This document shows, piece by piece, positions 10,344 through 36,053 of a DNA stretch of 64,000 bases. The position numbers and the translations under genes were made by a program. Origin of the DNA: Streptacidiphilus albus JL83 (GTDB lineage: Bacteria; Actinomycetota; Actinomycetes; Streptomycetales; Streptomycetaceae); NCBI RefSeq assembly GCF_000744705.1, contig NZ_JQML01000001.1:5962017-6026016 (forward strand), written 5' to 3'. Position 1 is the stretch's first letter, and each line of letters starts with the position of its first letter. The notes under the pieces were generated by a model, which was not told the origin of the DNA, searched no databases, and saw only the letters and a program-made list of their open reading frames with translations.

Positions 10344-10400
10344 CCGCACTCATCCGTACCTTTCAACCGCACCTGTCCGATCCCGATCGAAGGGGAAACC

Positions 10401-12918: not shown

Positions 12919-12925
12919 CCTTGTA

Positions 12926-12949: not shown

Positions 12950-12972
12950 CCCCACAGGAGGAATGGAAGCCG

Positions 12973-14939: not shown

Positions 14940-15004
14940 CGCCAGGTCACGATGATCCCGGTCCCATTTCCGAGGTATTCCACAAAGCGGTCGCGCCCCC
15001 TGCC

Positions 15005-15010
15005 TAGAGT
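15005..15010 (+). promoter_or_regulatory. -10 like hexamer TAGAGT, candidate leaderless promoter
   Basis: TAGAGT ends six bases before the ATG at 15017 and no ribosome binding site is visible, so the mRNA may begin at or near the start codon. A weak -35 candidate TTCCAC at 14978 has a long 21-base spacer. The same TANNNT-to-ATG spacing recurs at 20259, 21531 and 34585. Confidence 0.4.
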
Positions 15011-15016
15011 GAACCC

Positions 15017-16847: not shown

Positions 16848-17097
16848 GCCTGTCCTCCCCTTCTTCCCGGGCAAGCGCCGGGGAGAAAGGGAGGATGCAT
16901 GCCGCTGCTGGAATCGCGGTCGACACCGCGTCGGGTGGCGGCCGAGTGCCGCCCGTGCCGAGCGCCGGTTTGTCGAGAGCGGTTCGACCGGCGTGCGAAC
17001 GCTCCGGGGCAGAGTCACGGGGTGTGCGCAACGGGCGCAGCCGGAACAGGTCGGTGCAGGACGGGTGGAGGTCTCGGGTCACGTGCTTGTCGAATCG

Positions 17098-20271: not shown

Positions 20272-21528
20272 ATGATGCTGCGCACCATGGTGCTGGACAC
20301 CTGGCAGAGGAGAGGCGGCCGGAGCCGGCGGTTCTGGGGCGCGGGCGTCACCTTGCTGGTGACCGGGTGCGCCATCGTCCTGCTCGTCTCCTTCGGGTCG
20401 GGTCCGGGCAGCAGCAAGGGCGCAGCCCTGGGCTCCGGCACCCCGGCCAGTCTGCAGCCGTTGCAGCGGCTCGCCTTCGGGATGTCCTACGGGGACACCC
20501 TCACCTTCGACACCGGCCAACAGCTGGACCGGGCGCTGGACGACGCGGTGGCCCTCGGCGTGACCTGGGTGCGCACCGACCTGTCCTGGGAGGACATCCA
20601 GCCGGACAGCTCGGACAAGTTCCAGTGGCAGCGGTTCGACCGGGTGTTGGCGGCGGCGCGGGCACGGGGGCTGAACGTGCTGCCGACGATCTCCTACACC
20701 CCGCCGTGGGAGCGCCGGCCCGGCTGCACCGGCGGCCAGTCCTGCGCGCCGGTGGATCCCGCCGCCTTCGCCGCCTTCGCCCGGGAGGCGGCGGCCCGGT
20801 ACGCGCCGATGGGCGTGCATGTCTGGGAGATCTGGAACGAGCCCAACATCGGCTTCTGGGCGCCGCAGCCGGACCCGGTGGCCTACACCGCGCTGCTGCG
20901 CGACACGTCCGCGGCGATCCGTTCGGCGGACCCGAAGGCGTACCTGGTGATGGGCGGTCTGGCCGCGGTGCCGACCGATCCGGCGCGGGGCTACCTCTCG
21001 CAGACCGACTTCCTGGCCGCGGTCTCGAAGCTCGGCGCCAACCGGATGGTGAACGCGATCGGCTACCACCCCTACAACTACCCCAACCTGCCCAGCGCGA
21101 CCACCTCCTTCGGGACCCCCTTCCAGCGGATCAGCGACTTCGGCGGCAGCAGTCTGGAAGCGGTGCTGGCCGAGTACGGAACTCCGGACATGCCGATCTG
21201 GATCACCGAGACCGGGGCGCCCACCGACGGGCCGGGGGCGGCGGCCGACGGCCGGAGCACCCCGCCGAACAGCACCCATGTGACGGAGGCCTTCCAGGCC
21301 GCGATCGCGACCGACACCGTGCGGGCGGCCGCCGCCAACCCCTTCGTCTACACCCTGTTCTGGTACACCGACCAGGACTCGGCGCCGCCCACGGATCCCT
21401 CCGACCGTTCGCAGTTCTACGGGCTGCGGCGCTACGACGGCACCCGGAAGCCCGCCTTCGCCGCCCTCAAGGACGCCATCGCCGCCTACCAGCGGTCGAG
21501 GGCGGCCGCCACGCCGGACAGCGGCTGA
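20272..21528 (+). CDS. Secreted or membrane-anchored glycoside hydrolase, clan GH-A (GH5/GH39-like), copy 1
   Basis: The 418-residue protein has a basic N-terminus and one hydrophobic segment (FWGAGVTLLVTGCAIVLLVSF, about 25-43), so it is exported or anchored. The TIM-barrel domain carries the clan GH-A acid/base in VWEIWNEPN and the nucleophile in IWITETGAP. The WVRTDLSWEDIQPD and RGLNVLPTISYTPPWER stretches are typical of cellulase-family or GH39-like hydrolases. It probably trims an extracellular polysaccharide. It is a tandem paralogue of the next gene and sits beside the polysaccharide operon, which suggests processing or turnover of that polymer. Confidence 0.8.
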   Translation: MMLRTMVLDTWQRRGGRSRRFWGAGVTLLVTGCAIVLLVSFGSGPGSSKGAALGSGTPASLQPLQRLAFGMSYGDTLTFDTGQQLDRALDDAVALGVTWVRTDLSWEDIQPDSSDKFQWQRFDRVLAAARARGLNVLPTISYTPPWERRPGCTGGQSCAPVDPAAFAAFAREAAARYAPMGVHVWEIWNEPNIGFWAPQPDPVAYTALLRDTSAAIRSADPKAYLVMGGLAAVPTDPARGYLSQTDFLAAVSKLGANRMVNAIGYHPYNYPNLPSATTSFGTPFQRISDFGGSSLEAVLAEYGTPDMPIWITETGAPTDGPGAAADGRSTPPNSTHVTEAFQAAIATDTVRAAAANPFVYTLFWYTDQDSAPPTDPSDRSQFYGLRRYDGTRKPAFAALKDAIAAYQRSRAAATPDSG

Positions 21529-21543: not shown

Positions 21544-22785
21544 ATGGCTGAGCGAACGGATGAACGGCAGCGGCTGCGGCTGCGGACCGGCCTCGTCTCG
21601 TTGGTCTTCGTCCTGGTGGCCACAGCCCTCGGGGTCCACGCGTCCTCCTCGGACGCGCCGACGGCCCCGGGCGCCAAGGCCGCCGCCTCGGCCCCGGCCG
21701 GCCTGGTGGGCACGGGCGGCGCCCGGAGCATTCCGCTGGACTTCGGCGTCGCCTACGGGGACACCCTCCCGTTCGACTCGGACCAGAAGCTGGACAGCGC
21801 GCTGAACGACGCGGTGACCCTCGGTGCCACCTGGGTGCGCGCCGACCTGTCCTGGGAGGACATCCAGCCGGACGGTCCGGGGACCTACGACTGGCAGCGC
21901 TTCGACCGGGTGGTCGAGGCGGCGCGGGCGCGCGGGCTGAGCGTGCTGCCGACGATCTCCTACACCCCGCCGTGGGAGCGCTCGCCGGACTGCGCCAACG
22001 GCCAGTCCTGCGCACCGGTGGACCCGAACGCCTTCGCCACGTTCGCGCGGACGGCGGCGGCCCGGTACGCGCCGATGGGCGTGCACACCTGGGAGATCTG
22101 GAACGAGCCCAACATCCCGTTCTGGGGGCCCAAGCCGGACCCGGCGGCCTACACCGCGCTGCTCAGGGTGACCGCCAAGGCGATCCGCTCGGTGGACCCC
22201 AAGGCGTTCCTGCTGATGGGCGGTCTCGCCGCGGTCTCCACCGACCCGAAGATCAACTACGTCTCGGCGACCGACTTCCTGGCCGCCGTCTCGAAGCTCG
22301 GCGCCAACCGGCTGGTGAACGCCATCAGCTACCACCCCTACACCTATCCGTACCTGCCCACCGCCACCACCTCCTTCGGCACCGCGTTCCAGCGGATCAG
22401 CAGCTACGGCAGCGTCAACCTGGAGGCGGTGCTGACCAAGTACGGGACCCCGAACCTGCCGGTCTGGGTCACCGAGACCGGTGCGCCCACCAACGGCCCG
22501 GGGGCGGCGGCCGACGGCACCACCATCCCGCCGAACGCCACGGACGTCACCGAGGGGTTCCAGGCCGAGATCGCCACCGCCACGGTGAAGGCCGCCGCCG
22601 CCAACCCCTATGTGGGCGCGGTGTTCTGGTTCAGCGACCAGGACACCGGCACGCCGGCGCAGAAGAACTACCGCTCGCTCTTCTACGGCCTGCGGCGCTA
22701 CGACGGGAGCGAGAAGCCGGCCTTCACGGCGTTCAAGAACGCCATCGCCGCCTACGAGAAGTCGCTGCAGCCCCCGACGCCGTAG
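21544..22785 (+). CDS. Secreted glycoside hydrolase, clan GH-A (GH5/GH39-like), copy 2
   Basis: The 413-residue paralogue of the preceding gene is near identical in motif order: WVRADLSWEDIQPD, TISYTPPWER, TWEIWNEPN (acid/base) and VWVTETGAP (nucleophile). The N-terminus (LVSLVFVLVATALGVHA, about 18-34) acts as a signal or anchor, followed by an Ala/Pro linker. The main differences lie in the N-terminal 60 residues and in substrate-side loops such as GFWAPQPD versus PFWGPKPD. The two copies may split substrate or chain-end preference. A 17-base direct repeat (GACGCCGTAGCCGGYCC) spans the stop codon. Confidence 0.8.
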   Translation: MAERTDERQRLRLRTGLVSLVFVLVATALGVHASSSDAPTAPGAKAAASAPAGLVGTGGARSIPLDFGVAYGDTLPFDSDQKLDSALNDAVTLGATWVRADLSWEDIQPDGPGTYDWQRFDRVVEAARARGLSVLPTISYTPPWERSPDCANGQSCAPVDPNAFATFARTAAARYAPMGVHTWEIWNEPNIPFWGPKPDPAAYTALLRVTAKAIRSVDPKAFLLMGGLAAVSTDPKINYVSATDFLAAVSKLGANRLVNAISYHPYTYPYLPTATTSFGTAFQRISSYGSVNLEAVLTKYGTPNLPVWVTETGAPTNGPGAAADGTTIPPNATDVTEGFQAEIATATVKAAAANPYVGAVFWFSDQDTGTPAQKNYRSLFYGLRRYDGSEKPAFTAFKNAIAAYEKSLQPPTP

Positions 22786-22845: not shown

Positions 22846-24018
22846 CTAGACGGACCGCAGCAGCTCCAGGTAGCGCCGCATCAGGTCGGGCCAGGCGTAG
22901 TGCTGTTCGGCCCGCAGCCGTCCCGCCGTGCCGAGGCGGTCGGCCAGGGCGCCGTCCGCCAGCAGTCGGCGGCAGGCCGCCGCCAGCGCCTCGGGGTCGG
23001 CCGGCGGTACCAGCAGCCCGCACTCCTCGTCCACCACGACGTGCGGGATGCCGCCCACGGCGGAGCCCACCACCGGGGTGGCGCAGGCCATGGCCTCGAC
23101 CAGGCTCATCCCGAAGGACTCCGACTCGGTGCGCGAGGGCAGCACCAGCACGGCCGCCGTCCGCACGGCCTGCACCAGGTCCGCGCCGGTGAGCTCGCCG
23201 ACCGCGTCGACCCGGTCGGCGACGCCCAGGCGCTCGGCCAGCCGCAGGTGGTCCGCGAGCGCGTCCCCGCCGCCGACCAGTCGCAACCGGACCCCGGAGA
23301 GCCCGGGGGCGTCGGGGGAGTCCGCGGCGTCCGGGGAGTCCGCGCCGGTGACCAGGGCGAAGGCCCGGAGCAGCACGTCGACGCCCTTCCAGGCGGAGCT
23401 GCGGTCCATCCGTCCGACGTAGAGGAGGGTGCGGGGCCGCCGGGAGGCGGGCTCCCCGGGGGTGAAGCGCTCGGTGTCGACGCCGGGGGTGATCCGGACC
23501 GCGTGGTCGTGGCCGGCCGCCAGCGACACGGGTGAGACCGCGACCAGGGCCCGGGCGCGGGCGAAGACCCGGGGCAGCACCCGTCGTTCGTAGACCGAGA
23601 TCAGCCGGTCGGCCGCGCCGCTGCCGGGCTCGCCCTTGAGCATCGACCCGGCGTGGTAGGTCAGCACGGTCGGCCGCCGTCCGGCCACGGCGACCGCGAG
23701 GTCGCCCAGCCCCGGCACCGGGGCGTGGGCGTTGACCACCTCGGCGCCGGTCCGCCGCAGCCAGTACCGCAGTTGCAGCGGCCACAGCGGACTGAGCGGC
23801 GTGTTCGACAGCCGCAGCCAGGCGCCCAGCCGGACGACCGTGACGCCGTCCTCCTCGGCGACCGCCGTCCGCAGCCCGGAGGGCCGGGTGGTGATCACCA
23901 CCGGGCGCAGCGCGTCGTCGGCGGCGACGGCGGCGGCGACCCGGGCGGCGTAGTGCTCCACCCCGCCGACCTTGGGCGGGTAGTAGGGCGAGACGATCGC
24001 CACGGTGCGCCGGCTCAT
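22846..24018 (-). CDS. Glycosyltransferase, GT4 family
   Basis: The 390-residue GT-B enzyme opens with IVSPYYPPKVGGVEHYAARV, the acceptor-side glycine-rich loop of GT4 enzymes. It has the LLYVGRMDRSSAWKGVDVLLRAF donor strand near residue 200 and the ESFGMSLVEAMACATPVVGSAVGGIP nucleotide-sugar signature (E-x7-E) near 310. It adds a sugar to a growing lipid-linked glycan on the cytoplasmic side. Its ATG overlaps the pyruvyl transferase stop (ATGA). It is the last gene of the operon. Confidence 0.88.
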   Translation of the reverse strand: MSRRTVAIVSPYYPPKVGGVEHYAARVAAAVAADDALRPVVITTRPSGLRTAVAEEDGVTVVRLGAWLRLSNTPLSPLWPLQLRYWLRRTGAEVVNAHAPVPGLGDLAVAVAGRRPTVLTYHAGSMLKGEPGSGAADRLISVYERRVLPRVFARARALVAVSPVSLAAGHDHAVRITPGVDTERFTPGEPASRRPRTLLYVGRMDRSSAWKGVDVLLRAFALVTGADSPDAADSPDAPGLSGVRLRLVGGGDALADHLRLAERLGVADRVDAVGELTGADLVQAVRTAAVLVLPSRTESESFGMSLVEAMACATPVVGSAVGGIPHVVVDEECGLLVPPADPEALAAACRRLLADGALADRLGTAGRLRAEQHYAWPDLMRRYLELLRSV

Positions 24019-25289
24019 CGGACGGTCGGCGCCGACAGGTCGGCCTGCAGCTCGGCGACGAACCCGGCGGCGCGGGCCGAGTAGCCGGGGATCACTCGGC
24101 GCAGGTGCTCACGGTAGGCGTCGCCGTCGACCAATAGCTTGTCGACGAGGGCGATGAGCGAGTCGGCACGGGCCTCGGTCATCGGCACCACCCAGTGGCC
24201 CAGGTCGAGGTCCTCCATGATCCCCCGGGTCTTGTGGTCGTACTCGACGGCCGCGCAGGGGACCCCGGCCAGCAGGCCGAAGATCACCGAGTGGAACCGG
24301 GTGCCGAGGATGAAGTCGGCGGTGCCGTAGAGCGCGAAGACGTCGTGGTGGTCGACCCGGTCGTCGTCGAGCACGTGCAGCCGGGGGCTGCCGACGCGGT
24401 CGGCGATCCGGGAGTTGACGATCCGGTCGTCGTCGGCCTGGAAGCTGCAGGTGACCTGGGGCACGAGCACGACCTGGCAGTCCTCCCGTTCGAGCAGGTG
24501 CCGGACGGTGGCCGCCATGGCCGCCTCGTAGCCGGACTGGGCCTCGCTGCCCAGGTACTGACGTGCCGTCATCAGCACCAGGACGGCGTCCTCGGGGATG
24601 CCGAGCTGCTGCCGCCAGGGCCGGTCCGAGGCGCCGTGGAAGGCGAAGGCGCTGTCGACGCCGCGGACCAGATTGGCCGGGGGCACCCCGGCCTCGTCGA
24701 GCCGCTGCAGGCTGATCTCCTCGCGGACCACCACCCGTCGGCAGGTCGCCAGCACCCGGCGGACCATCAGCCGCTGCACCCCGGTGGGGAAGGGCCCGTA
24801 GGACTGCGGGCCCAGCACCGTGGGGACCGCGAACCGGTGGGCCAGCCACAGCGGCAGCAGCAGGAAGCCGATGCTCAGGTCGGAGGCGAAGTCGGCCTTG
24901 CCGTTGAGCCGCCCGCCGCCCAGGGAGAAGACCAGGTCGGCCTCGGCCAGGGCCCGCAGCTCCGCGCGCATCTCCCCCGGCAGCAGCCAGGAGACCGCCC
25001 TGAGCAGCGGTGCGCTGCCGGGGACGGCGGCCAGCAGGGCGAGCCCGAGCGCCAGCAGCTTGCGGCTGATCCGGACCAGTCGGCCGACCGTCTCGTCGCC
25101 CACGTACCGGCGGATCGAGCCCAGGTTCGGCACGCCGTCGAACTCGGGCCGCTGCTGCGGCTGTTCGAAACCGGCGATGTGCAGCTCCGCCCCCGGAAAG
25201 GCCAGTTGGAGCTGCTCGACGGCGACGCTCAGCAGGGCCGCGTCGCCGCGGTTCTCCCGCAGGTACGCGTCGACGATCACGATCTTCAC
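24015..25289 (-). CDS. Polysaccharide pyruvyl transferase family protein
   Basis: The 424-residue protein begins VKIVIVDAYLRENRGDAALL (N-R-G-D-A-A-L nucleotide/PEP loop). It carries SLGGGRLNGK near residue 135, GPQSYGP near 175 and the late ILGTRFHSVIFGLLAGVPC motif (the G-T-R-x-H core of CsaB/WcaK-type ketal pyruvyl transferases). It would place a pyruvyl ketal from PEP on a sugar, giving an acidic polymer and often a site for S-layer-type binding. The GTG start overlaps the upstream gene's stop (GTGA), which rejects the longer open frame. Confidence 0.85.
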   Translation of the reverse strand: MKIVIVDAYLRENRGDAALLSVAVEQLQLAFPGAELHIAGFEQPQQRPEFDGVPNLGSIRRYVGDETVGRLVRISRKLLALGLALLAAVPGSAPLLRAVSWLLPGEMRAELRALAEADLVFSLGGGRLNGKADFASDLSIGFLLLPLWLAHRFAVPTVLGPQSYGPFPTGVQRLMVRRVLATCRRVVVREEISLQRLDEAGVPPANLVRGVDSAFAFHGASDRPWRQQLGIPEDAVLVLMTARQYLGSEAQSGYEAAMAATVRHLLEREDCQVVLVPQVTCSFQADDDRIVNSRIADRVGSPRLHVLDDDRVDHHDVFALYGTADFILGTRFHSVIFGLLAGVPCAAVEYDHKTRGIMEDLDLGHWVVPMTEARADSLIALVDKLLVDGDAYREHLRRVIPGYSARAAGFVAELQADLSAPTVR

Positions 25290-26479
25290 AGGGCGACGAC
25301 CTCCAGGTAGTGGTGTTCCAGGGCGTCGAGGAACTCCGCGACGCCGTACCGCTCCGCCCGCAGCGCCGAGGCGGCGCCCATCCGTTCCAGCGCCCCCGGG
25401 TCGGCCAGCAGCCGGCCCAGTGCCGCCGCGAGTTCGGCCGCGCTGCCCGCCGTCACCAGTGCGCCGTTGTCCGGACCGACCAGCTCCGGCAGTCCGCCGA
25501 CCCGGGAGGCCACCATGGGCCGCCCCAGCTGCAGCGCCTCCAGCGCGACGGTGGGGAAGTTCTCCGGCCACAGCGAGGGCAGCACCACCACGGCCGAGGC
25601 CCGCAGCCGCCCGGCCACGCCCTCCGGCGACAGCCGGCCGTGGAAGCGTACGCTCCCCCCGGCGGTGAGGTCGGCCGCGGCGGCCTCCAACCGGGCCCGG
25701 TCGGTCCCGTCCCCGACGATGTCCAGCCGCGCGCCGGGGCGTTCCGGCAGCAGCAGCCGGAACGCGTCCAGCAGCACCTGGACGCCCTTCACCGGTTCCA
25801 GCCGCCCGACGAAGAGCAGCTGTTCGGTCCCGGTCGGCGGCTCCGGGGCGGCGGTCCGCTCGATCCCGTTCGGCAGCACGAACACCGGGACCCGCCCCAC
25901 GTCCCGGCGGACCGCCTCGGCGAAGTAGGCGCTGGGGGCCAGCACCCGGTCCAGCCGCCGGATCCGCGGCAGGTAGCCGGGACGCTGGAGGAACCGCAGG
26001 TAGAGGTAGCGGGCCCGGTCGCCGGCCGACAGCCGCCCAGCGCCGGTACCGGCGCTGGCGAGGTTCCAGCGGAGCAGCGACAGCGTCCAGTCCTCGGGGC
26101 CGTGCACGGTCAGCAGCCGGGGGCGGCCCCGGGTCGCGGCCAGCACCGCCGGGCTGAACTCGCCGATGGTGTGCAGGTGCACGCAGTCCGGACGGAACCC
26201 GGCGAGCTCCCGGCGCAGGATCCGGTGGGCCGGCCGGTGCCAGAAGTAGCCGAGCAGCCGCCGGGCGGGACCGCCGGCGACGGCCGGCACCAGCACGTCC
26301 GCGAACAGCTCCGGCGCCGCACCGGAGCGGTCGGCCGAGGACGGGTCGCCGGCCAGCAGGTCGGTGGCGACCACCCGGACCTCGTGCCCGCGCGCCCGCA
26401 GCCCCTCGGCGATCAGCCGGACGCTCTTCTCCGCGCCGCCGGCCTCGAAGCCGATGTTGACGATCTGCAGGATTCTCAC
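25286..26479 (-). CDS. Glycosyltransferase, GT4 family
   Basis: The 397-residue GT-B protein starts at GTG 26479 after GGAGG on the minus strand and overlaps the flippase stop by four bases. It shows ILQIVNIGFEAGGAEKSVRLIA at the N-terminus and LLFVGRLEPVKGVQVLLDAF near residue 215. WPENFPTVALEALQLGRPMVASRVGGLPEL (the E-x7-E donor signature) lies near 300. It most likely builds the repeat unit of the exported polysaccharide, together with the neighbouring transferases. Donor sugar and linkage cannot be inferred. Confidence 0.87.
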   Translation of the reverse strand: MRILQIVNIGFEAGGAEKSVRLIAEGLRARGHEVRVVATDLLAGDPSSADRSGAAPELFADVLVPAVAGGPARRLLGYFWHRPAHRILRRELAGFRPDCVHLHTIGEFSPAVLAATRGRPRLLTVHGPEDWTLSLLRWNLASAGTGAGRLSAGDRARYLYLRFLQRPGYLPRIRRLDRVLAPSAYFAEAVRRDVGRVPVFVLPNGIERTAAPEPPTGTEQLLFVGRLEPVKGVQVLLDAFRLLLPERPGARLDIVGDGTDRARLEAAAADLTAGGSVRFHGRLSPEGVAGRLRASAVVVLPSLWPENFPTVALEALQLGRPMVASRVGGLPELVGPDNGALVTAGSAAELAAALGRLLADPGALERMGAASALRAERYGVAEFLDALEHHYLEVVAL

Positions 26480-27879
26480 GGATGTGCCTCCAGGGCTCGG
26501 GACAGCCGCTGCGCCCAGGGCTGCTCCGGGTCGGACGAGTCCCAGGTCAGCGTCGGCCGAACGGCCGACCGCTCCGGCTCGGGCTGCGCCGGGTCCGACG
26601 CGGCGTCCGCGCCGTCCGGCAGCGCCGCGTCGCGCCGCGCGCGGCGGCCGACCAGCGCGGCCAGCGCCACCAGCCCGGACGCCAGGTTGCCCGCGGCCCA
26701 GGCCCAGCCCAGCCAGACCAGTCCGCGCGGGGCCCAGAGCAGGGCCAGGCCGATGACCACCACCGCGTAGACGATGTTGCTGACGATCATCGCCCGCATC
26801 TGCTTGACCAGCTTGAGGGCGAAGCTGGACCAGCTGTTCAGCGCGACCGGGAGCGCGCCGACGGCGAACACCTGCAGCAGGCCGTGCACATGGGTGGCGT
26901 AGGCGCCGCCGAAGACCCGCAGCAGCAGTCCGCTGCCGAGGCCGACCACGGCGGCGGCCGGGACCTGGACGGCGAGGATGATGCCGACCGAGCGCCGCAG
27001 CAGCACCCCGAAGCGCGAGGGGTCGTAGGAGACCTCGGCGAAGACCGCCTCGCCGACGGAGTAGGACACCGAGTTGAGCAGCCCGGCTATCTGGAAGGCG
27101 ACGAAGTAGTACCCGGCCGCGGCGGCGCCCAACTGCTGGAGCACGACCAGCGGGACGACCATCAGCGGGGCGAGGTTGAGCAGGCTGGAGACGTAGCTGG
27201 CCATCGAGAACCGCAGCTGCTCGCGCAGCCGGGTGCCCCGGGAGAGCAGGTCGAAGCGCCAGCCGAGCTTGGAGCGCATCAGCAGCAGCGAGGCGGCGAC
27301 CGCCACCACGTAGCCGCCGCCGGTCGACCCGACGATCCCGGCGGTGCCGTAGCCGACCAGCAGCGCGGGCAGCGCCAGCTTGGCCAGGCCCTGGATCAGT
27401 CCGTCGACGATCACGTTGTACTGCGGCACCCGGGCGCCGATGAAGACCGAGTCGGTCAGCAGGTTCAACCCGGAGCAGGCGCAGAACACCACGAAGGCCG
27501 CGGCCAGCATCGGGGAGTCGCGGACGAACAGCAGCTTCTGGCCGTAGAGCGGCAGCCCGAGCAGATAGCCGGCGCCCACCAGCACCGAGGTGATCCCGAC
27601 CACGACCAGCGACTGGGTGATCTGCCCGTTGCGGGAGACGCCGGCCGCCGGGAACCGGATCAGCGTGCTGTTCAGCCCGAACAGGCTGAGATAGGCGATC
27701 AGCGAGGTCGCCGACACCAGCGAGGTGGCCAGGCCGACCTCGGCGGGGGAGTAGTAGCGGGCGACGACCACCCAGAAGAGGAAGCCGAGGGCGGCGGTGA
27801 CCACGGTCGAGGCGAGCAGGAAGAAGGAGCTCCGGTAGACCTGGTCCGGCTGCCGGGCGTGTTTGCCGCGTGCGTTCAT
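26476..27879 (-). CDS. Polysaccharide flippase, Wzx/MATE-like
   Basis: The 467-residue protein has about 12-14 hydrophobic segments in the oligosaccharide flippase pattern. It starts with SSFFLLASTVVTAALGFLFWVVVARYYSPAEVGLA, the conserved first helix pair of Wzx proteins. The C-terminal 45 residues are a cytoplasmic acidic tail. It would move the lipid-linked glycan made by the adjacent transferases to the outer face. ATG 27879 overlaps the upstream stop. Its presence argues that the operon makes a complete exported polymer or repeat unit. Confidence 0.88.
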   Translation of the reverse strand: MNARGKHARQPDQVYRSSFFLLASTVVTAALGFLFWVVVARYYSPAEVGLATSLVSATSLIAYLSLFGLNSTLIRFPAAGVSRNGQITQSLVVVGITSVLVGAGYLLGLPLYGQKLLFVRDSPMLAAAFVVFCACSGLNLLTDSVFIGARVPQYNVIVDGLIQGLAKLALPALLVGYGTAGIVGSTGGGYVVAVAASLLLMRSKLGWRFDLLSRGTRLREQLRFSMASYVSSLLNLAPLMVVPLVVLQQLGAAAAGYYFVAFQIAGLLNSVSYSVGEAVFAEVSYDPSRFGVLLRRSVGIILAVQVPAAAVVGLGSGLLLRVFGGAYATHVHGLLQVFAVGALPVALNSWSSFALKLVKQMRAMIVSNIVYAVVVIGLALLWAPRGLVWLGWAWAAGNLASGLVALAALVGRRARRDAALPDGADAASDPAQPEPERSAVRPTLTWDSSDPEQPWAQRLSRALEAHP

Positions 27880-29075
27880 GGGCGCGGCGGGCGAGGGGAC
27901 GGGTGGTGCGGCGAGCGGTCGGGCAGCGCTTCGGCGTAGTGCCGCAGCAGCGCCTCCGCGTGCTGCGGCCAGGAGAAGCCGGTCTCGGCGTAGTGGCGCG
28001 CGTAGTCGCCCATCCGGCCGCGCAGCTCCGGGTCCCCGGCCAGCGAGGCCAGCGCGGTCCGCAGCGCCGGGACCTGACGCGGGACCAGCGCCACCAGCCC
28101 GGGGTCCAGCCGGTAGGGCGCATAGCCGGGATCGTCGCTGGTCAGCACCGCCAGCCCGGAGGCCATGGCCTCCTGCACGGTCAGCGGGAATCCCTCCGCC
28201 GCCGAGGGCAGGGCGAATATCTCGCAGGCCCGGTAGAGCTCGGCCAGCCGCTCGGCCGACAGGGTGCCGAGATGGTGCACCCCGGTGCGGCCGGCCAGCG
28301 CCCGGCTGTCGCCGTCCCCGGCGAAGACCAGCTCGTAGCCGGGCTCCGGCTCGGCCGCGTGCGCGGCGAGCAGCAGGTCGTAGCCCTTCTTCGGCACCAG
28401 CCGGCCGGCGAACAGCACCAGCGGGACGTCGTCCGGGAGGCCGAAGCTCCGGCGGGCGTCCCGGCGTTCCCCGGCCGAGGCGGCCGGCCGGAACAGCACC
28501 GGGTCCACTCCGTTGGCCAGGTGGTGGCTGCGCGCCGGACGCGCGCCGTACCGGCCGACGAAGGCGGCGACGCCGGCGTTGAGGGTGAGCACCGCCCGGG
28601 CCCGGCGCAGCAGCGAGCGCCCGGCCGTCGCGTACACGGCCCGCTGCACCCCGCGCACCAGCGCCGAGGGGTGCTCCACCAGGGCGACGTGCTGGGTGAC
28701 CAGGTGCGGGGTGCGGGTCAGCGCGGCCGCCAGTCCGGCCGCCCAGGAGGTCGGGTAGAGGCAGTCGTGCACGTGCACCACGTCGGCCCGGCGGACCAGC
28801 CGGAGCGCGGTCGGCAGCAGCCGCGGCGACAGCACCGGGAAGGGCACCCCGGCCCGTCGCTCCACCCCGTTCCAGGCCCGGACCCGGACCACCCGCACGC
28901 CCGCCTCGTCGACGGCGCCGCTCCGCTCCCCGCTGGTGAGCACGGTGACGTCGACGCCCAGGGCGGCCAGCTGGACCGCCTCGTTCCGGACCACGTTCTC
29001 GATCCCGCCGAGGTGCGGCGGGTAGTAGTGGCTCACCAGGAGGACCCGGAGCGGCTGGGTGCGGGGCGCGGTCAT
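27876..29075 (-). CDS. Glycosyltransferase, GT4 family
   Basis: The 399-residue enzyme begins VLLVSHYYPPHLGGIENVVRNEA, the same loop as the other GT4 members. It has LVLFAGRLVPKKGYDLLLAAH near residue 205 and AEGFPLTVQEAMASGLAVLTSDDPG (E-x7-E) near 295. The last 12 residues are Pro/Arg/His-rich and probably disordered. It overlaps its neighbours on both sides by four bases. It is assigned to assembly of the exported glycan. Confidence 0.88.
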   Translation of the reverse strand: MTAPRTQPLRVLLVSHYYPPHLGGIENVVRNEAVQLAALGVDVTVLTSGERSGAVDEAGVRVVRVRAWNGVERRAGVPFPVLSPRLLPTALRLVRRADVVHVHDCLYPTSWAAGLAAALTRTPHLVTQHVALVEHPSALVRGVQRAVYATAGRSLLRRARAVLTLNAGVAAFVGRYGARPARSHHLANGVDPVLFRPAASAGERRDARRSFGLPDDVPLVLFAGRLVPKKGYDLLLAAHAAEPEPGYELVFAGDGDSRALAGRTGVHHLGTLSAERLAELYRACEIFALPSAAEGFPLTVQEAMASGLAVLTSDDPGYAPYRLDPGLVALVPRQVPALRTALASLAGDPELRGRMGDYARHYAETGFSWPQHAEALLRHYAEALPDRSPHHPSPRPPRP

Positions 29076-31462
29076 CGGTAGATCTCAGCCCCTTCATTGC
29101 TGTAGATCTCGTCCTTGGTGCTCTGGAGGAGACCCATAGGGTAGCGGTAGGTCACCAGGTCGCCCTGGTAGTAGATGGTCACCGTGTCCTGCACCACGGT
29201 GGTCGTGCCGAGCAGCACGTAGGCGTTCCGGTCGAGCACGGTGGGGAAGATGTCGCCCATCACCGGCCCGGTGAACAGGGTCTGCTCGCGGCTGAAGGTG
29301 AAGGAGTCGGTCTGCACCACCGGCTCGGGCCTCCCCTGCGGGGTGGCGTCGATCTGCCGGCTCAGCCAGTAGGAGGCCATCCGCTCCTGCGTGGTGGGGT
29401 AGTAGACGTCGTAGTACTGGCCGGAGTTGCTGAGCTGCAGCTGGGCCGGGTAGCCGCCGAGGACCTTCGGCACCACGCCGGTCAGGTCCAGGAACAGCCC
29501 GATCACCAGCACGCAGACCACCGGGACGGACCGCCGGCCGAACCAGCGGGCCAACCGCAGCGCCCCGGCGGCGATGAACGGGGCGAAGCAGAACAGCCCC
29601 TGCTGGAAGGCGCGCTGGACGCTGTAGTCGACCGCGAGCTGGGGCAGCACGGTGAGCAGCGCGACCATCCCGACCGACCCCACGGTCAGGGTGACCTGGT
29701 CCCGTGCGGGCCGGAAGCACTTGCGGCGGCCCCGCAGCGTCACCACCAGCCCGAGCAGCAGCAGTGCCTCGAACCCGAGCGCGGCGGCCTCCCGCAGCAG
29801 CCCGTTGACCGTGACCGTGGAGACGCCGGTCGCCTGCAGCGCCCGCCCGGCGGCGGTGAGCGGCAGGTTCGGGGTCGGCACGGCGGTGACCGGGTAGGCG
29901 TTGACGGTGGACAGCGGGAGGTAGCTGCCGCCGGCGCGCTTGCCGGCCGTCTGGATCAGGGTCTGGGCGCGGTAGTCGGCCAGCTGCTGCTGCGGGGTGC
30001 CGGTCGCCTGGCCGTGGCCGAGGTGGGCGATGCCCTGGTAGACGTTGCCGAGAGTGGTCTGCAACTGCCCGCTGGTGTGGGTGATCGGGGCGGCCCAGAC
30101 CACCGCCAGCACCGCCGGGACGAGCACCATCCACCAGCTGACGAAGGCGTGTGAGCTGGTCAGCGGGTCGCGTCGGCGCAGCCGCCGGCGCTTGCCGCGG
30201 GTGACCAGCCGCCAGAGCAGGTCGGTGGCGAAGCCGATGCCGAGGACACCGACCACCACGTAGGTGGTCGAGTAGTGCGAGAGCACGATGCCGGCCAGCA
30301 GCACCGTGAAGGCCGTCCGGCGGGCGCGCAGCGGGCGCCCGGTGTCGGTCACCACCACCATCGCGCAGCCGAGCAGCACGAAGGCGATCTCCTGCCGGCC
30401 GAGGTAGGTCATGTCCGTGTAGAAGGTCGGGAACACCAGGAAGAAGACGGCCGAGAGCAGCGAGACCAGTTGCGGGGCCACGTTCCGGACGGTGCGGTGG
30501 ACCAGCAGCGGGGTCAGCGCGAACAGCAGCGGCAGGACGATCTTGAAGACGTAGACGCCGGGGATCGCGGTGAGGCGGACCAGCGAGACCGGCAGCAGGG
30601 TGATGCTGAGGCAGGCGTTGTAGGGGTTGGGGTAGGCGGCGACGTTCCACCGCGATCCGCCCAGGGTCAGCTGGAAGTACTCGTACTCGCGCTGGATGTC
30701 GTGGCCGGTGATGTACCAGCCGCGCAGTGAGACCAGCAGCAGCAGCGAGAGCGAGGCGGCGTACAGGCCGCAGCCGAGCACGGCGGCCGGGTAGCGCCCG
30801 CGTCGCACCAGCACCAGCAGCAGCAGGGCGGCGACGGCGACCAGGGCGACGGTGCTGACGCCGCCGCCCAGGCCGTTGTTGAGCCGGATCGGCCCGGCCA
30901 CCGACAGCAGCAGGGCGACCGCGCCCAGCGCCCCGACCGGCAGGGCGCCCCGGGGCAGCCCCGGCCGCGCCCCGGTCGTCCGGGCCGCTCGGGCCGCTCG
31001 GGCCTCCTCGGGGAGGAACATCCCGAGGACGATCACGGTGAGCGCGGCGGCGGCGGCGAGCACGGTCCGGGTCAGTGGCCGGGCGTCACCCACCAGCGGC
31101 AGCAGGGTGTTCACGCCGAGGGCGACCACCATGTCGGTGATCAGTGTCAGGCCCACGGCCAGCAGCAGGCTGCCGTCCCGGGTGGAGACCGCCCGGGCGG
31201 CGGTCCCGCGCCAGACCAGGGTCGGGGCGAGCAGCAGCAGCCAGAGCCCGGCCAGGGTGAGCGGCAGCCCGGGCAGGCCCGGCACCATCTCGACGGCGCA
31301 GCCGAGCGCGGTCGCGGCCATGACCCCGGAGCGCCCCCGGGCCCAGCCGGGCAGGCGCGACCCCGCCGGACTCGTACCGGCGGGACCCGTACCGGCCGGA
31401 CGCGCGCCGGTCGCAGCCGCTCCGGTCGCAGCCGCGCCGGTCGTGCTCGCGGCGCGGCTCAT
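29072..31462 (-). CDS. Large polytopic membrane protein, DUF2206-like
   Basis: The 796-residue protein has around 14-16 predicted membrane spans followed by a C-terminal extracellular part of about 120 residues (YYDVYYPTTQERMASYWLSRQID). HDIQREYEYFQLTLGGSRWNVAAYPNPYNACLSITLLP near residue 250 and FPTFYTDMTYLGRQEIAF near 345 recall lipid-sugar-dependent GT-C transferases and DUF2206 proteins. It may be a GT-C glycosyltransferase or polymerase for the locus; this is inference. The N-terminal 40 residues come from short GC-rich DNA repeats at 31365-31440 and are Ala/Gly/Thr-rich. Confidence 0.68.
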   Translation of the reverse strand: MSRAASTTGAAATGAAATGARPAGTGPAGTSPAGSRLPGWARGRSGVMAATALGCAVEMVPGLPGLPLTLAGLWLLLLAPTLVWRGTAARAVSTRDGSLLLAVGLTLITDMVVALGVNTLLPLVGDARPLTRTVLAAAAALTVIVLGMFLPEEARAARAARTTGARPGLPRGALPVGALGAVALLLSVAGPIRLNNGLGGGVSTVALVAVAALLLLVLVRRGRYPAAVLGCGLYAASLSLLLLVSLRGWYITGHDIQREYEYFQLTLGGSRWNVAAYPNPYNACLSITLLPVSLVRLTAIPGVYVFKIVLPLLFALTPLLVHRTVRNVAPQLVSLLSAVFFLVFPTFYTDMTYLGRQEIAFVLLGCAMVVVTDTGRPLRARRTAFTVLLAGIVLSHYSTTYVVVGVLGIGFATDLLWRLVTRGKRRRLRRRDPLTSSHAFVSWWMVLVPAVLAVVWAAPITHTSGQLQTTLGNVYQGIAHLGHGQATGTPQQQLADYRAQTLIQTAGKRAGGSYLPLSTVNAYPVTAVPTPNLPLTAAGRALQATGVSTVTVNGLLREAAALGFEALLLLGLVVTLRGRRKCFRPARDQVTLTVGSVGMVALLTVLPQLAVDYSVQRAFQQGLFCFAPFIAAGALRLARWFGRRSVPVVCVLVIGLFLDLTGVVPKVLGGYPAQLQLSNSGQYYDVYYPTTQERMASYWLSRQIDATPQGRPEPVVQTDSFTFSREQTLFTGPVMGDIFPTVLDRNAYVLLGTTTVVQDTVTIYYQGDLVTYRYPMGLLQSTKDEIYSNEGAEIYR

Positions 31463-32589
31463 CCGAAGACCTTCGTGTAGACCTGTTCGACCTGCTCGGC
31501 CACCGCGGCCCAGGAGTGGCCGCGGGCGGCGGCCGCGCTGCGCCCGGCGAGCTGCCGGCGCAGCTCCGGATCGGCCGCGACCCGGTCGATCGCGGCCGCC
31601 AGCTCCGCCGCGTCGGGGGCCACCAGCAGTCCGACCCCGCGCAGCAGTTCGGCGTTGCCGGGGACGTCGGTGGCCACCACCGGCAGGGAAGCCGCCATGG
31701 CCTCCAGTGCCACCAGCGGCATGCCCTCCTTCTCGGAGGGCAGCACGAAGACGTCGGCCCGGGCGTAGGCGTCGAGCAGGTCCCGGCCGTGCAGGGCGCC
31801 GGAGAAGCTGACGTCCTCCAGCCCGAGCTCGCGGGCCCGCGCCTCCAGCGGCCCGCGCAGCTCGCCGTCGCCGACGATGCGCAGCCGCACCGGCCGAGCG
31901 GTCCGGCTCAGCGCGTCCAGCAGCCGGTCGACGCCCTTCTGCGGATTCAGCCGGCCGACGAACAGCAGCTCCAGCGGCCGGTCCTCCGGCTCGCGCGGCG
32001 GCCGGAAGAACTCCTCGCCGACCCCGTTGGGCACCACGAAGATCCGGTCGGCGGGCACCCGGTAGGCCTCCCGGACGAAGTCGGCCTGAGCCCCGGTCAG
32101 CACCACGACCCCGGCGGCGGCCCGGGCGACCCGGCCGAAGACGTGCTTCTTGTAGGCCGGCAGCAGCACCCCCAGCGGTCCGGAGCCGTCCACGTCCAGG
32201 TGGAAGTGGAGCAGGAAGCGCTGCCCCCGGAGCCGGGCGGTCAGCGCGACCAGTTCCGGGATCAGCGCGTGCGCGCTGTGCAGGTGCAGGACCGAGGAGC
32301 GCGGGGCACGCAGCAGCGACAGCGGCAGCCCGGGGGAGACCGCGGTGTGCGCCCATTCGACGGCGCGGTGCCGGTGCACGGTCAGGCTCCCCTGCTGGTA
32401 GCGGTGGAGCGCGCCCTCGGCGCCGATGCCGGTGGTGACCACCCGCACCTCGTGCCGCTTGGCCTGCTCCTGGGAGAGCCGTTGCACCACGCGTTCCAGG
32501 CCGCCCAGGTGCGGCGGGTAGTAGGGGGTGATCTGCACGATGGTGCGGGGCCGTGCCGGACCGGGTGCGGTGTCTCGGGTGCTGTCCAT
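31459..32589 (-). CDS. Glycosyltransferase, GT4 family
   Basis: The 376-residue enzyme starts at ATG 32589, preceded by AAGGG; the upstream extension to 32673 is rejected because it covers the intergenic region. It has IVQITPYYPPHLGGLERVVQRLS, LLFVGRLNPQKGVDRLLDAL near residue 200 and KEGMPLVALEAMAASLPVVATDVPGN (E-x7-E) near 290. The start lies 31 bases after the single-span protein's stop, the only real gap in the operon. The role is sugar transfer in polymer assembly. Confidence 0.88.
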   Translation of the reverse strand: MDSTRDTAPGPARPRTIVQITPYYPPHLGGLERVVQRLSQEQAKRHEVRVVTTGIGAEGALHRYQQGSLTVHRHRAVEWAHTAVSPGLPLSLLRAPRSSVLHLHSAHALIPELVALTARLRGQRFLLHFHLDVDGSGPLGVLLPAYKKHVFGRVARAAAGVVVLTGAQADFVREAYRVPADRIFVVPNGVGEEFFRPPREPEDRPLELLFVGRLNPQKGVDRLLDALSRTARPVRLRIVGDGELRGPLEARARELGLEDVSFSGALHGRDLLDAYARADVFVLPSEKEGMPLVALEAMAASLPVVATDVPGNAELLRGVGLLVAPDAAELAAAIDRVAADPELRRQLAGRSAAAARGHSWAAVAEQVEQVYTKVFG

Positions 32590-32620
32590 GGTGTTGCCCT
32601 TGCGGTCGGTGTCCGGCTGG

Positions 32621-33211
32621 CTAGTTCCCGAAGGCGTAGTGCAGTCGCTGCGGATGGCCGACCAGGATGACATCCACCTCGCTGACCGCCACCGTCAGGG
32701 TGGTGGGCAGCACCGGGCGGGCGACCACGCTCACCGGGGTGCCGTCGCGCGGGACCAGGGCCACCGTGGCCGTCGAGACGACGGCGCCGCTGTCCGTCTC
32801 CAGCTGCACCTTCAGCGTGAACGAGCCGACGTCCGTGCCGTGGGTGTCGATGGTGATCGGCACGACCACGGTGGCCCCGTCGAAGGCCGGTGCGGCGGTG
32901 AAGTACAGCTCGGTGTAGGGGCTCTGCTGCTCGGTGAACGACTGGAGCAGGACCGTCCGCACCGGACCGACCGACCAGAGGCCGACCGCCAGCGCGACCG
33001 CGACGAGGCCGCCCAGCAGCGCCGACGCCGCCCGCTTCGGCGTGCTCGGCCTCCGGCCGCGTCGGCGGCGGCGGGATCGGGGACGGCCCTCCTCCGCCGG
33101 TGCCGACGCCTCGTCCGGCACTGCTTCCTGCTCCGGCACTCCCTCCGGCTCCGGCACTGCTTCCGGCTCCGGTTCCGTCTCCGCTGCCGGTTCTGTCGGT
33201 CCGGGGCTCAT
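32621..33211 (-). CDS. Single-span membrane protein with acidic N-terminal tail, unrecognised
   Basis: The 196-residue protein has a Glu/Pro-rich cytoplasmic tail (1-45), a basic patch RSRRRRRGRRP (46-56) and one membrane segment (ALLGGLVAVALAVGLWSVG, about 62-80). An extracellular beta-rich domain of about 110 residues (VVVPITIDTHGTDVGSFTLKV) follows. I do not recognise the family. ATG 33211 overlaps the GT2 stop (ATGA), so it is translated with the polysaccharide genes. It may be a chain-length, scaffold or copolymerase-like accessory, but no motif proves this. Confidence 0.65.
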   Translation of the reverse strand: MSPGPTEPAAETEPEPEAVPEPEGVPEQEAVPDEASAPAEEGRPRSRRRRRGRRPSTPKRAASALLGGLVAVALAVGLWSVGPVRTVLLQSFTEQQSPYTELYFTAAPAFDGATVVVPITIDTHGTDVGSFTLKVQLETDSGAVVSTATVALVPRDGTPVSVVARPVLPTTLTVAVSEVDVILVGHPQRLHYAFGN

Positions 33212-33984
33212 GCGACTTCGTATTCCTCGGTGTGCCGCCGCTGGGCCGGGACGCCCGCGCTCGTGCTGTCCGCCGGGTCCAGGACCGGCTCCCCGGACCT
33301 GGTCCGGCGGAAGCGGTGCTCGAAGAGCTGCCGCAGGTTGGCCATGCCGTCGGGCAGTGCGTTCAGCTTCACCTCGCCGGCGCGCTTGCGGTACTCGATC
33401 GGCACCTCCAGGAAGCGGTAACCGGCGACCGTGGCGGCGTTCTTGATCTCCTGCGAGAAGGCCATGCCCTCCGAGCGGACGTCGATCCCGTGCCAGACAT
33501 AGCGTCGGAATATCCACATGCCGGACTGGGAGTCGCGCAGCCCGTTGTGGAAGAGCCGGCGGCTGAGCGCGCTCAGCGCGTGGTTGGCGATGGAGTGGGT
33601 CGGCTTCATGGCCGGGCGGTTGGCGCGCTGCAGCCGATCCGTCGTCATGAACTCCACGTCCCGCTCCACCAGCGTGCGCAGCAGCTCCGGCAGGGCGTCG
33701 AAGGGGTAGGTGCAGTCGGCGTCGCCGGTGGCGATCACGGTGCCGGTGGCGGCCTCGAAGCCGGCCAGGTAGGCGTTGCCGTAGCCGCGCTTGGGCTGGA
33801 GCACGACGCGTGCCCCGAGCGAGCGGGCGACCTCGGCGGTGCCGTCGGTCGAGCCGTTGTCGACCACCACCACCTCGGTGCCCCAGCCTCCGGCCGCCAG
33901 TTCGTCCACCGGCACCGAGGCGAGCACCGAGGGCAGGTTGGACGCCTCGTTGAGGGCCGGTATGACGATAGACAGGCTGTCCAT
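33208..33984 (-). CDS. Glycosyltransferase, GT2 family (polyprenyl-phosphate sugar transferase-like)
   Basis: The 258-residue GT-A enzyme has SIVIPALNEASNLPSVLASVP at the start, VVVDNGSTDGTAEVAR near residue 40 and the metal-binding ATGDADCTYPFDALPELL near 85, resembling dolichyl/polyprenyl-phosphate mannosyl- or glucosyltransferases. It lacks the C-terminal membrane helices of the larger members. It could make the polyprenyl-phosphate sugar used by a GT-C enzyme in this operon, such as the polytopic protein at 29072. It is the first gene of the operon and starts at ATG 33984. Confidence 0.85.
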   Translation of the reverse strand: MDSLSIVIPALNEASNLPSVLASVPVDELAAGGWGTEVVVVDNGSTDGTAEVARSLGARVVLQPKRGYGNAYLAGFEAATGTVIATGDADCTYPFDALPELLRTLVERDVEFMTTDRLQRANRPAMKPTHSIANHALSALSRRLFHNGLRDSQSGMWIFRRYVWHGIDVRSEGMAFSQEIKNAATVAGYRFLEVPIEYRKRAGEVKLNALPDGMANLRQLFEHRFRRTRSGEPVLDPADSTSAGVPAQRRHTEEYEVA

Positions 33985-34598: not shown

Positions 34599-36053
34599 AT
34601 GACCGACGGCAGGGAAGACCGGGACGAGTCCGTCCCCTCGGAGCGGGACCCCCGAGCGGGTCGGCAGGCGCCTTCCGCGCTGCCCGACCCCCGGATATCG
34701 GCCCCGGCGGCGGACGACTCCACCCGACTCCTCGGTTACGGCTACCCGCCCGCGTCACCGCCGCCGCGCGACGAGCCCACCCAACTGCTCAGCCCCGTCG
34801 TCGGCTACGGCTACCCGCAGCCCGCGCCGGCGCCCGCGCCCGCGCCGACGTCGGCCGATGAGCCCGGCCGGGTCCCCGGCTACGGCTACCCGCCGCAGCA
34901 GCCGGCGCGGCCGGTGCAGCCGGAGCCGTTCCGCCCCGCGCCGCCCAGGCCGCAGCAGCCCTACCCGCCGCAGCAGGTCAATCCGCAGCAGGCCGCCCCG
35001 CAGCAGGGCTTCGCCGCGCAGCAGGGCTTCGCCCCGCAGCAGGCCGGCCCGCAGCAGGGCTTCCCGCCGCCGCGGGCCAATCCGCCGCAGCAGGGCTTCC
35101 CGCCGTCACCTCCGCTGCCCGGGCTTCCCGTTCCCCCCTCCAACGAGCCGGACTGGTCCTCGCTGGCCGACCAGCACGACGCCCGGGCCCGGCGCACCCG
35201 CCGACTGCGGATCGGCGGCATCGCGCTCGCCGTCTGCGTGGTCGTGGCCGGCGGCGTCGTGGCCCTGCAGAGCCGGGGCGGGAAGCCGACGCCGCACGCC
35301 GGACCCACCGCCAGCGCCACCGCCACCGGGCCCTCGGCCTCGGCCTCGGGGCCGACCACCGCTCCGAGCGCGTCCTCGACCTCGCCCACCGTCCCCGGGC
35401 AGCCCGGGGTCCTCGCCGACCAGTCCGGGCAGTCCGACCTCGCGCTGGGCCCGGGCGCCACCGTCAGCTCGGTCCAGAACGGCTTTGTGGCCTCCTTCGA
35501 TAACGCCTCCAACTCCTATGCGCAGTCGGCCGATCCGGTGGTCGACACGACCAAGGGCTTCAGCGTCTCGGCCTGGGTCTACAACCAGGCGCACACCCTG
35601 ACCCGGGCCGCCATCAGCCAGGGCGACGGCGTGTCCTACTCCTTCATGCTGGGCCGCGACATCGTCAACGGCCGCTCCGGCTGGACGTTCAGCGTCCAGA
35701 CCGGGGGCAACGGCGCGGACAGCACCGTCTACGAGGCGCGGGTCAACAGCGCCTCCACGGTCGGCGACTGGGCCCTGCTCACGGGGGTCTACAGCGCGTC
35801 GAAGCACACCATCCAGCTCTATGTGAACGCCGTTCCGGGCGCCACCGTCACCGTCCCCGGGATCTGGACCGGGACGGGCCCGCTGCAACTCGGCCGGGAC
35901 CGCCACCACGGCCTGTGGGACGACTCCTGGGACGGCGTCATCGGCCACATCCAGATCTGGAACCAGCCGCTGGACCAGGCCGAGGTCACCAATGTGAAGA
36001 ACGGCGGCTCCGGGCTCTCCGCCCATCCCGTCGCCTCCTGGCTGGTCGGCTGA
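34599..36053 (+). CDS. Membrane-anchored LamG/concanavalin-like lectin protein with Pro/Gln-rich cytoplasmic repeats
   Basis: The 484-residue protein has three parts. Residues 1-190 are disordered and low-complexity, with three GYGYPP-type repeats and at least four QQGF repeats. A single membrane span follows at about 205-225 (IGGIALAVCVVVAGGVVAL). A Ser/Thr/Pro linker leads to an extracellular LamG-like jelly-roll domain from about 275 (GFSVSAWVYNQAHTLTRAAISQGDG, WALLTGVYSASKHTIQLYVNA, GHIQIWNQPLDQAEVTNV). The domain probably binds a cell-surface carbohydrate. Being divergent from the polysaccharide operon, it may recognise that polymer. Confidence 0.78.
   Translation: MTDGREDRDESVPSERDPRAGRQAPSALPDPRISAPAADDSTRLLGYGYPPASPPPRDEPTQLLSPVVGYGYPQPAPAPAPAPTSADEPGRVPGYGYPPQQPARPVQPEPFRPAPPRPQQPYPPQQVNPQQAAPQQGFAAQQGFAPQQAGPQQGFPPPRANPPQQGFPPSPPLPGLPVPPSNEPDWSSLADQHDARARRTRRLRIGGIALAVCVVVAGGVVALQSRGGKPTPHAGPTASATATGPSASASGPTTAPSASSTSPTVPGQPGVLADQSGQSDLALGPGATVSSVQNGFVASFDNASNSYAQSADPVVDTTKGFSVSAWVYNQAHTLTRAAISQGDGVSYSFMLGRDIVNGRSGWTFSVQTGGNGADSTVYEARVNSASTVGDWALLTGVYSASKHTIQLYVNAVPGATVTVPGIWTGTGPLQLGRDRHHGLWDDSWDGVIGHIQIWNQPLDQAEVTNVKNGGSGLSAHPVASWLVG

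Follow-up and report, generated by a model that had tools for sequence, protein, structure and literature searches.

The stretch of DNA analyzed here (the window) is 64,000 nucleotides of Streptacidiphilus albus JL83, positions 5,962,017–6,026,016 of a single-contig genome of 9.9 Mb, with a G+C content of 69–75% along its length. Nine consecutive genes on its minus strand (22846–33984), designated g1 (at the 33984 end) down to g9 (at 22846), form an operon that may build a surface glycan from repeat units with no polymerase of the Wzy type, the 796-residue DUF2206 protein encoded by g4 serving as polymerase or block transferase; we give this reading roughly even chances. It starts from the gene content, the GT-C fold of the predicted g4 model, and the conserved gene neighborhood, which are what the analysis shows. 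The operon is well conserved among the relatives that have it and is largely explained at the level of its parts. What is likely to be novel is a DUF2206-family GT-C enzyme in the position of a polymerase, with a conserved single-span partner.

Organization of the Operon

Adjacent genes overlap by 4 bases at seven of the eight junctions (five ATGA and two GTGA), and g2 and g3 are separated by a 31-base gap; the nine-gene overlap-coupled operon that an earlier note had described from the sequence was recovered as such. Overlaps of this kind are ordinary in such genomes. Two further pairs occur within the same window, and in L036, the one relative tallied with verified coordinates, six of seven junctions are 4-base overlaps. 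A chance arrangement of the genes was ruled out because the gene order recurs in 15 loci of the same order. The Pfam content comprises one family 2 glycosyltransferase (GT2), four family 4 glycosyltransferases (GT4), a MOP flippase, a pyruvyl transferase, a DUF2206 protein, and a single-span protein, which bears out the five glycosyltransferases, flippase, DUF2206-like protein, and pyruvyl transferase named in the earlier note.

Lengths are given after start fixing. The first gene, g1 (33208–33984, 258 residues; PF00535, E = 3.1e-25), encodes a GT2 of the polyprenyl/dolichyl-phosphate hexose synthase type, the proposed initiator on polyprenyl phosphate, and is followed by g2 (32621–33211, 196 residues), for which the model and profile comparison indicate one transmembrane (TM) helix and a β-sandwich, perhaps DUF1616-like. 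The GT4 enzymes are encoded by g3 (31459–32589, 376 residues; PF13692, 4.2e-37), g5 (27876–29075, 399 residues; PF00534, 9.5e-27), g7 (25286–26479, 397 residues, GTG start; PF00534, 1.3e-35), and the last gene of the operon, g9 (22846–24018, 390 residues; PF13692, 6.7e-35). Between g3 and g5 lies g4 (29072–31462), g6 (26476–27879, 467 residues; PF01943, 1e-12) encodes the MOP-family (Wzx-like) flippase, and g8 (24015–25289, 424 residues, GTG start; PF04230, 1.4e-29) encodes the polysaccharide pyruvyl transferase.

Predicted Structure of the DUF2206 Protein

As a whole protein, g4 scores 53.1 bits against DUF2206 (PF09971, E = 3e-14), compared with a curated Pfam cut-off of 35.6; its single best stretch in the genome search with PF09971 scores 33.7, just below that cut-off. 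PDB sequence searches with g4 gave nothing meaningful. A structure model built from 17 homologues has a mean predicted local distance difference test score (pLDDT) of 74.5 and a predicted template modeling score of 0.76. When the model was searched with Foldseek, ranks 1–13 were all GT-C enzymes (AftA, the best match, as well as oligosaccharyltransferase-complex chains, DPY19, and AglB), rank 14 was an unrelated transporter, and ranks 15–16 were ArnT and PglB. In the VIA-align search, ranks 1–38 were GT-C enzymes, including STT3, AglB, PglB, and AftA, with Z-scores from 20.4 (421 residues, root mean square deviation 5.3) to 8.7, and rank 39 had a Z-score of 5.6; some of the matched chains of oligosaccharyltransferase complexes are STT3. 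For mostly helical models a Z-score below about 13 may mean little, and ranks 1–31 exceed that value. The matched core starts near residue 220 in most rows, and the first ~165 residues are hardly tested by these alignments. The check for a GT-C fold suggested in the earlier note was therefore positive in both searches, and from the model g4 is predicted to have a GT-C fold of the GT-CA type.

Nine diverse DUF2206 members share the invariant residues D255, E259, R356-Q357-E358, H396, Y397, T399, and Y401 (g4 numbering). GT-C enzymes carry a catalytic acid after the first core helix, in the first extracytoplasmic loop, and D255 and E259 follow that helix in g4, in a stretch (residues 248–256) with pLDDT below 50. 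From the alignments and the helix boundaries of the model, the GHDIQxEY sequence (residues 253–260; 30683–30706) is a candidate catalytic loop; the invariant RQE (residues 356–358; 30389–30397) and HYxTxY, of which the named letters are invariant (residues 396–401; 30260–30277), may also have functional roles. A shared GT-C fold does not specify which reaction g4 catalyzes. The earlier note had suggested that the polytopic and single-span proteins may define a non-canonical polymerase or export partner; the fold is compatible with that suggestion, and the polymerizing role itself is something that we infer.

Proposed Initiating Enzyme, Single-span Protein, and Pyruvyl Transferase

The top NCBIfam models for g1 are NF041391 (dolichyl-phosphate hexose transferase, 1.6e-34) and AglJ (2e-30), both with scores far under the equivalog cut-offs, and its best PDB match is the dolichol-P-mannose synthase 5mlz (5e-12). 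By these matches g1 is nearest to the polyprenyl-phosphate hexose synthases.

The model of g2 (pLDDT 74.5) has an acidic N terminus of low confidence and a helix (residues 59–93) followed by eight strands. A Pfam scan of g2 gave a low-complexity match only and no meaningful family, and PDB sequence searches gave nothing meaningful. In the fold search the one match below 0.001, at 1.1e-4, was a type IV pilus protein from an archaeon (TM-score 0.34, root mean square deviation 10.4), and the others were mixed β-sandwich proteins; no function was read from these matches. In hhalign, g2 aligns with the 152-residue proteins encoded near the DUF2206 genes of two distant loci, L057 and L058, with probabilities of 77 and 65. 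The g2-like proteins of L057, L058, and L060 match DUF1616 below its cut-off (5.8e-4, 1.6e-4, and 7.1e-4), that of L057 matches Prophage_tailD1 better (2.3e-5, over the cut-off), and that of L061 has no DUF1616 match at 0.1. The DUF1616 link of g2 is accordingly put forward as a weak lead. Archaeal glycoproteins listed in the available part of the literature include a DUF1616 protein.

The pyruvyl transferase g8 is the sole PF04230 match in the whole genome, and a PDB sequence search with it gave nothing meaningful. It is present in the window and matched in just three of the 15 relatives' loci, so pyruvylation does not define the system, and g8 is an optional accessory. Of the pyruvylated, acidic repeat-unit glycan first proposed for this operon, the repeat unit remains plausible, the acidic character is hypothetical, and the pyruvyl group is no longer a defining feature.

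PslG-like Hydrolases beside the Operon

Beyond g9, on the opposite strand and convergent with the operon, are two genes for Cellulase/PslG-like glycoside hydrolases that were absent from the earlier note. The product of ghA (21544–22785, plus strand; PF00150, 1.3e-12) has a hydrophobic N-terminal segment and matches PslG (PDB 4zn2) at 3.5e-22 over residues 81–412. Its paralogue ghB (20272–21528, plus strand; PF00150, 1.4e-10) is 69% identical to it over residues 40–413 of ghA. WEIWNEP and VWVTETG motifs are found in ghA, and NEP and TETG motifs, which we take to hold the catalytic glutamates, are found in both proteins; both motif patterns are present in 13 of the 18 hydrolases scanned. The sequence match together with both glutamate motifs points to PslG-like hydrolases.

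Conservation and Distribution

In an order-level sample of 61 genomes (that of S. albus included), 16 have a strong DUF2206 match; one more, G034, has a marginal match (9.8e-4) and is not counted among the 16. Gene presence was scored by tblastn in the loci of the other 15 positive genomes. Matches to g2, g4, g5, and g6 were found in all 15 loci, to g1 and g3 in 13 each, to g7 in 11, to g9 in six, and to g8 in three. A PslG-like hydrolase is present in 14 of the 15; the locus without one, L042, is a 12.7-kb contig, and its genome has a hydrolase on another contig. Strong hydrolase matches (E < 1e-60) occur in exactly the same 16 of the 61 genomes as strong DUF2206 matches, with weaker hydrolase matches (best 1.3e-46) in 11 others. 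Fisher's test on this distribution (16/0/0/45) gives 5e-15, a value that reflects linkage rather than independent gain, since the genes are adjacent, the genomes are related, and the threshold was set post hoc. The recurring core comprises the GT2, the single-span protein, GT4 enzymes, the DUF2206 protein, the flippase, and the PslG-like hydrolase.

In wider draws the DUF2206 family is rare. PF09971 matches were found in five of 246 genomes of a phylum draw (own genome included), two of them over the cut-off and one of the five better explained as TMEM260-like, and a nine-member DUF2206 alignment matched three of 138 genomes of a class draw (own genome included, with at most seven candidates scored per genome). 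Locus L059 was dropped as a DUF2206 locus because TMEM260-like O-mannosyltransferases fit better (1.9e-24 versus 1.2e-5), and L067, with a length of 5 kb only, was left out of the synteny comparison. In six distant loci, L034 (Nocardioides), L057, L058, L060, L061 (Nonomuraea), and L066, the DUF2206 gene is accompanied by matches to a flippase and to GT2-like and GT4-like enzymes. With a motif selected post hoc, a g2-like protein was found in four of the six (L057, L058, L060, and L061) and not in L034 or L066. L057 has two PslG-like hydrolases, and the same scans gave none in the other five. PF09971 also matches in Methanosarcina acetivorans, one of 14 controls. A plasmid collection contained no relative of g4; the distant DUF2206 queries matched one Nonomuraea record only, where no features are annotated.

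Two further genes were seen in these loci. In seven relatives, and not in the window, a protein of 150–162 residues with two or three predicted TM segments is encoded between g5 and the flippase gene (L038:6927-7415, L040:6844-7305, L044:11849-12301, L045:7240-7692, L046:11980-12432, L047:11031-11483, and L048:11848-12300). The four that were scanned gave no Pfam match; the protein might be a small flippase or a counterpart of ImpD, a 5-TM protein of Actinoplanes that is considered below. A polysaccharide-deacetylase-like protein is encoded near DUF2206 in L057 (L057:13497-14219, Pfam match) and L058 (L058:3623-4354, similar N terminus only).

Wzy, Wzz, and Exporter Genes

Among 47 proteins of the window that were compared with Pfam, none matched a Wzy or Wzz family; stretches without a called open reading frame, such as 2732–5462, lay outside the scans. 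The locus has a Wzx-type flippase (g6) and neither Wzy nor a Bac_transf initiator, and no ATP-binding cassette (ABC) ATPase with an ABC-2 subunit lies in the operon or its direct flanks. The only such pair in the window is at 59933–61686, 26 kb from the operon. The genes in a row at 57318–62597 encode a radical SAM/SPASM protein, an S24-peptidase-like protein, the ABC ATPase and ABC-2 protein, and a JmjC_2 protein, and are possibly a modified-peptide cluster with its exporter. Because of the adjoining radical-SAM/SPASM, S24-peptidase-like, and JmjC genes the pair was assigned to this other cluster, and ABC-dependent export of the glycan by it was rejected. The earlier note had seen no Wzy, Wzz, or ABC-type exporter. 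This holds for the 47 proteins as regards Wzy and Wzz and for the immediate surroundings of the operon as regards exporters, and has to be qualified by the ABC-2 pair at 26 kb and by Wzy_C proteins elsewhere in the genome. The latter number two, one at 2.88 Mb and one at 6.82 Mb; the only two Bac_transf matches of the genome, at 2.90 and 6.82 Mb, lie close to them, one to each, with 12 kb and 0.7 kb between the matched stretches. "No Wzy" is a property of the locus and not of the genome. Neither result that would have spoken against the earlier note's reading turned up: a GT-C fold was predicted, no Wzy was seen among the scanned window proteins, and the nearest ABC-2 pair is 26 kb off in a cluster that looks unrelated.

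On a heuristic gene list, the 15 order-level loci and L034 contain few other proteins with at least seven predicted TM segments. These are MFS pumps (L038 and L034), an amino-acid permease (L045), and, divergent from g1 in L036 (L036:4702-5928), a weak GT87-like protein with seven predicted TM segments (PF09594, 0.0029, below the cut-off).

Proposed Pathway and Alternatives

In the proposed pathway we infer what each enzyme catalyzes and in which order, which sugars and which lipid are involved, and what g2 does. The GT2 g1 would load the first hexose onto polyprenyl phosphate, and the GT4 enzymes g3, g5, g7, and g9 would lengthen it into a unit of some five sugars, to which g8 could optionally add a pyruvate ketal. 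The lipid-linked unit would be flipped by g6 and transferred en bloc outside the membrane by g4, as an STT3/AglB/AftA-type GT-C enzyme, to the growing chain or to a surface acceptor. The g2 protein may be a membrane-anchored partner of g4, and ghA and ghB would then cut or release the polymer. In a bolder version, which we regard as doubtful, a polysaccharide polymerase complex of a new kind would consist of DUF2206, as an STT3-type GT-C enzyme that polymerizes oligosaccharides en bloc, and of the single-span DUF1616-like protein, as a β-sandwich co-polymerase that replaces Wzz. Such a complex would occur in scattered lineages within the phylum and in archaea as well.

Several points weigh against a polymerase or block transferase role of g4. 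We know of no activity or glycan for the operon. The g4 model is only moderately confident, with pLDDT below 50 in the putative catalytic loop. A Wzy_C match is present elsewhere in 15 of the 16 DUF2206-positive genomes, for which action in trans is possible. The sixteenth, G044, has the core operon (without g3) and neither a Wzy_C nor a Bac_transf match, which favors the proposed pathway; as one genome, in an assembly of 420 contigs that was searched with Wzy_C only among the Wzy families, it is no more than suggestive. L040, whose locus spans 20 kb, is the one relative with a match to neither g1 nor g3; an ABC ATPase/ABC-2 pair, which might be an alternative exporter in that relative, lies 2.8–4.5 kb upstream of its g2 (L040:14181-15879). 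Confidence in the proposed pathway is slightly lowered by this pair and by the ABC-2 pair in the window. Finally, the GT-CA families listed in the available text of PMC10920833 use lipid-P-monosaccharides, with the exception of GT66.

This last rule would suit a different role for g4, that of a decorating GT-C enzyme in the manner of GtrB/GtrC or AftA, in which the product of g1 would be a polyprenyl-phosphate monosaccharide whose sugar g4 attaches, on the outer side of the membrane, to a glycan assembled by the remaining enzymes. AftA is the best Foldseek match of g4, enzymes of the g1 type supply donors of this kind, and the 150–162-residue TM protein seen in seven relatives could be a small flippase, although the four scanned have no Pfam match. 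With a decorating role, however, the locus would have no polymerase to go with its four GT4 enzymes and MOP flippase, and the window, in which g5 and g6 overlap, lacks the small TM gene; we consider this role possible but improbable. It is unlikely that the operon serves an oligosaccharyltransferase-type glycosylation of protein or cell wall, in which g4 would pass a completed oligosaccharide on to an acceptor, protein or wall, and no polymer would form. The closest structural matches of g4 include oligosaccharyltransferase chains, AglB, and PglB, g1 is AglJ-like, and DUF2206 also occurs in M. acetivorans, but the presence of PslG-like hydrolases at the locus speaks for a polysaccharide as their substrate, and apart perhaps from g2 the locus encodes no evident acceptor protein. 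A canonical Wzx/Wzy pathway split over the genome, in which one of the two distant Wzy proteins polymerizes in trans and g4 does something else, is very unlikely, because each of them lies near a Bac_transf gene, as in separate clusters, and the core operon occurs in G044, where there is no Wzy_C match.

Relation to Known Systems

On the best reading, a pathway in which g4 joins lipid-linked units resembles those of lactococcal PSP and of Actinoplanes Imp. The imp cluster of Actinoplanes missouriensis, according to the available text of PMC12691653, encodes three GT4 enzymes, one GT2, the flippase ImpC, and the 11-TM protein ImpE with an Alg6_Alg8 domain; its authors treat the system as Wzx/Wzy-dependent and consider that ImpE may act as Wzy. 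The cluster adjoins gimB, a hydrolase gene annotated as GH5, single-gene imp mutants have misshapen sporangia, and GimA and GimB cut a repeat-unit matrix polysaccharide into oligosaccharides (excerpts of PMC12691653 and PMC13390465). The combination of GT4 enzymes, a GT2, a flippase, a polytopic membrane protein, and an adjacent hydrolase is also that of the operon. However, ImpE is not called DUF2206 in the accessible text and is likened to g4 by description, not by sequence; Imp includes the 5-TM protein ImpD, and that text describes no single-span β-sandwich protein or pyruvyl transferase. GimA and GimB also contain an additional galactose-binding-like domain, and the authors' tree places them with β-mannosidases. 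Homology of Imp with this operon is offered as a lead by analogy.

For the lactococcal PSP (WpsA–WpsJ), the consulted portion of PMC10821137 describes a first enzyme that makes GlcNAc-P-undecaprenol, further glycosyltransferases that extend it, and export by a Wzx-like flippase, with GT-C enzymes proposed for polymerization and ligation. By description, an undecaprenyl-monophosphate initiator (a proposed role in the case of g1), several cytoplasmic glycosyltransferases, a Wzx-like flippase, and GT-C enzymes are common to that system and the operon; in contrast, PSP is linked to rhamnan, WpsA is assisted by WpsB as a small activator, and the same portion mentions no PslG-like hydrolase or DUF1616-like partner. 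The PSP-type combination of a GT2 of the polyprenyl-phosphate-sugar-synthase type, a flippase, and a GT-C enzyme is present here at the level of family and fold only.

Archaeal N-glycosylation (AglJ and AglB) shares with the operon an AglJ-like GT2 (g1) and the GT-C transferase fold of g4, although g4 is DUF2206 by sequence and no acceptor protein is known for the operon. The canonical Wzx/Wzy pathway shares the MOP flippase and cytoplasmic glycosyltransferases, but the locus has no Wzy_C, Wzz, or Bac_transf and has instead a GT-C enzyme nearest to STT3 and AftA. PslG of Pseudomonas aeruginosa, the protein matched by ghA, is likewise encoded beside polysaccharide genes, those of the psl set; Psl is made by a gene set different from this operon.

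The recognized joiners of lipid-linked sugar units are Wzy, SEDS, and O-antigen ligases, a list that a GT-C polymerase would widen. If correct, the proposed role would provide DUF2206, and possibly DUF1616, both families of unknown function, with a function that can be tested, and the operon may provide a wider setting for the recently described Imp/Gim matrix polysaccharide of Actinoplanes. A literature search, whose coverage left out most subscription journals, found no paper on DUF2206 or this operon.

Neighboring Genes in the Window

Divergent from g1 is a gene for a LamG/concanavalin-like lectin-domain protein (34599–36053, plus strand; PF13385, 1.4e-21) with an in-frame ATG at 34599 and a proline-rich, repetitive N-terminal half. 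LamG matches occur near the glycan operon in five of the 15 order-level loci, and the association of this protein with the operon is uncertain. On the other side, the genes at 1664–16537 encode a sugar nucleotidyltransferase, an epimerase, a DegT aminotransferase, an NDP-hexose 2,3-dehydratase, a Gfo/Idh oxidoreductase, a carboxyl transferase, and an aromatic-ring FAD monooxygenase, which looks like part of a cluster for a glycosylated aromatic natural product. Between this cluster and the PslG-like hydrolases is a two-gene 2-oxoacid:ferredoxin oxidoreductase (16735–20041).

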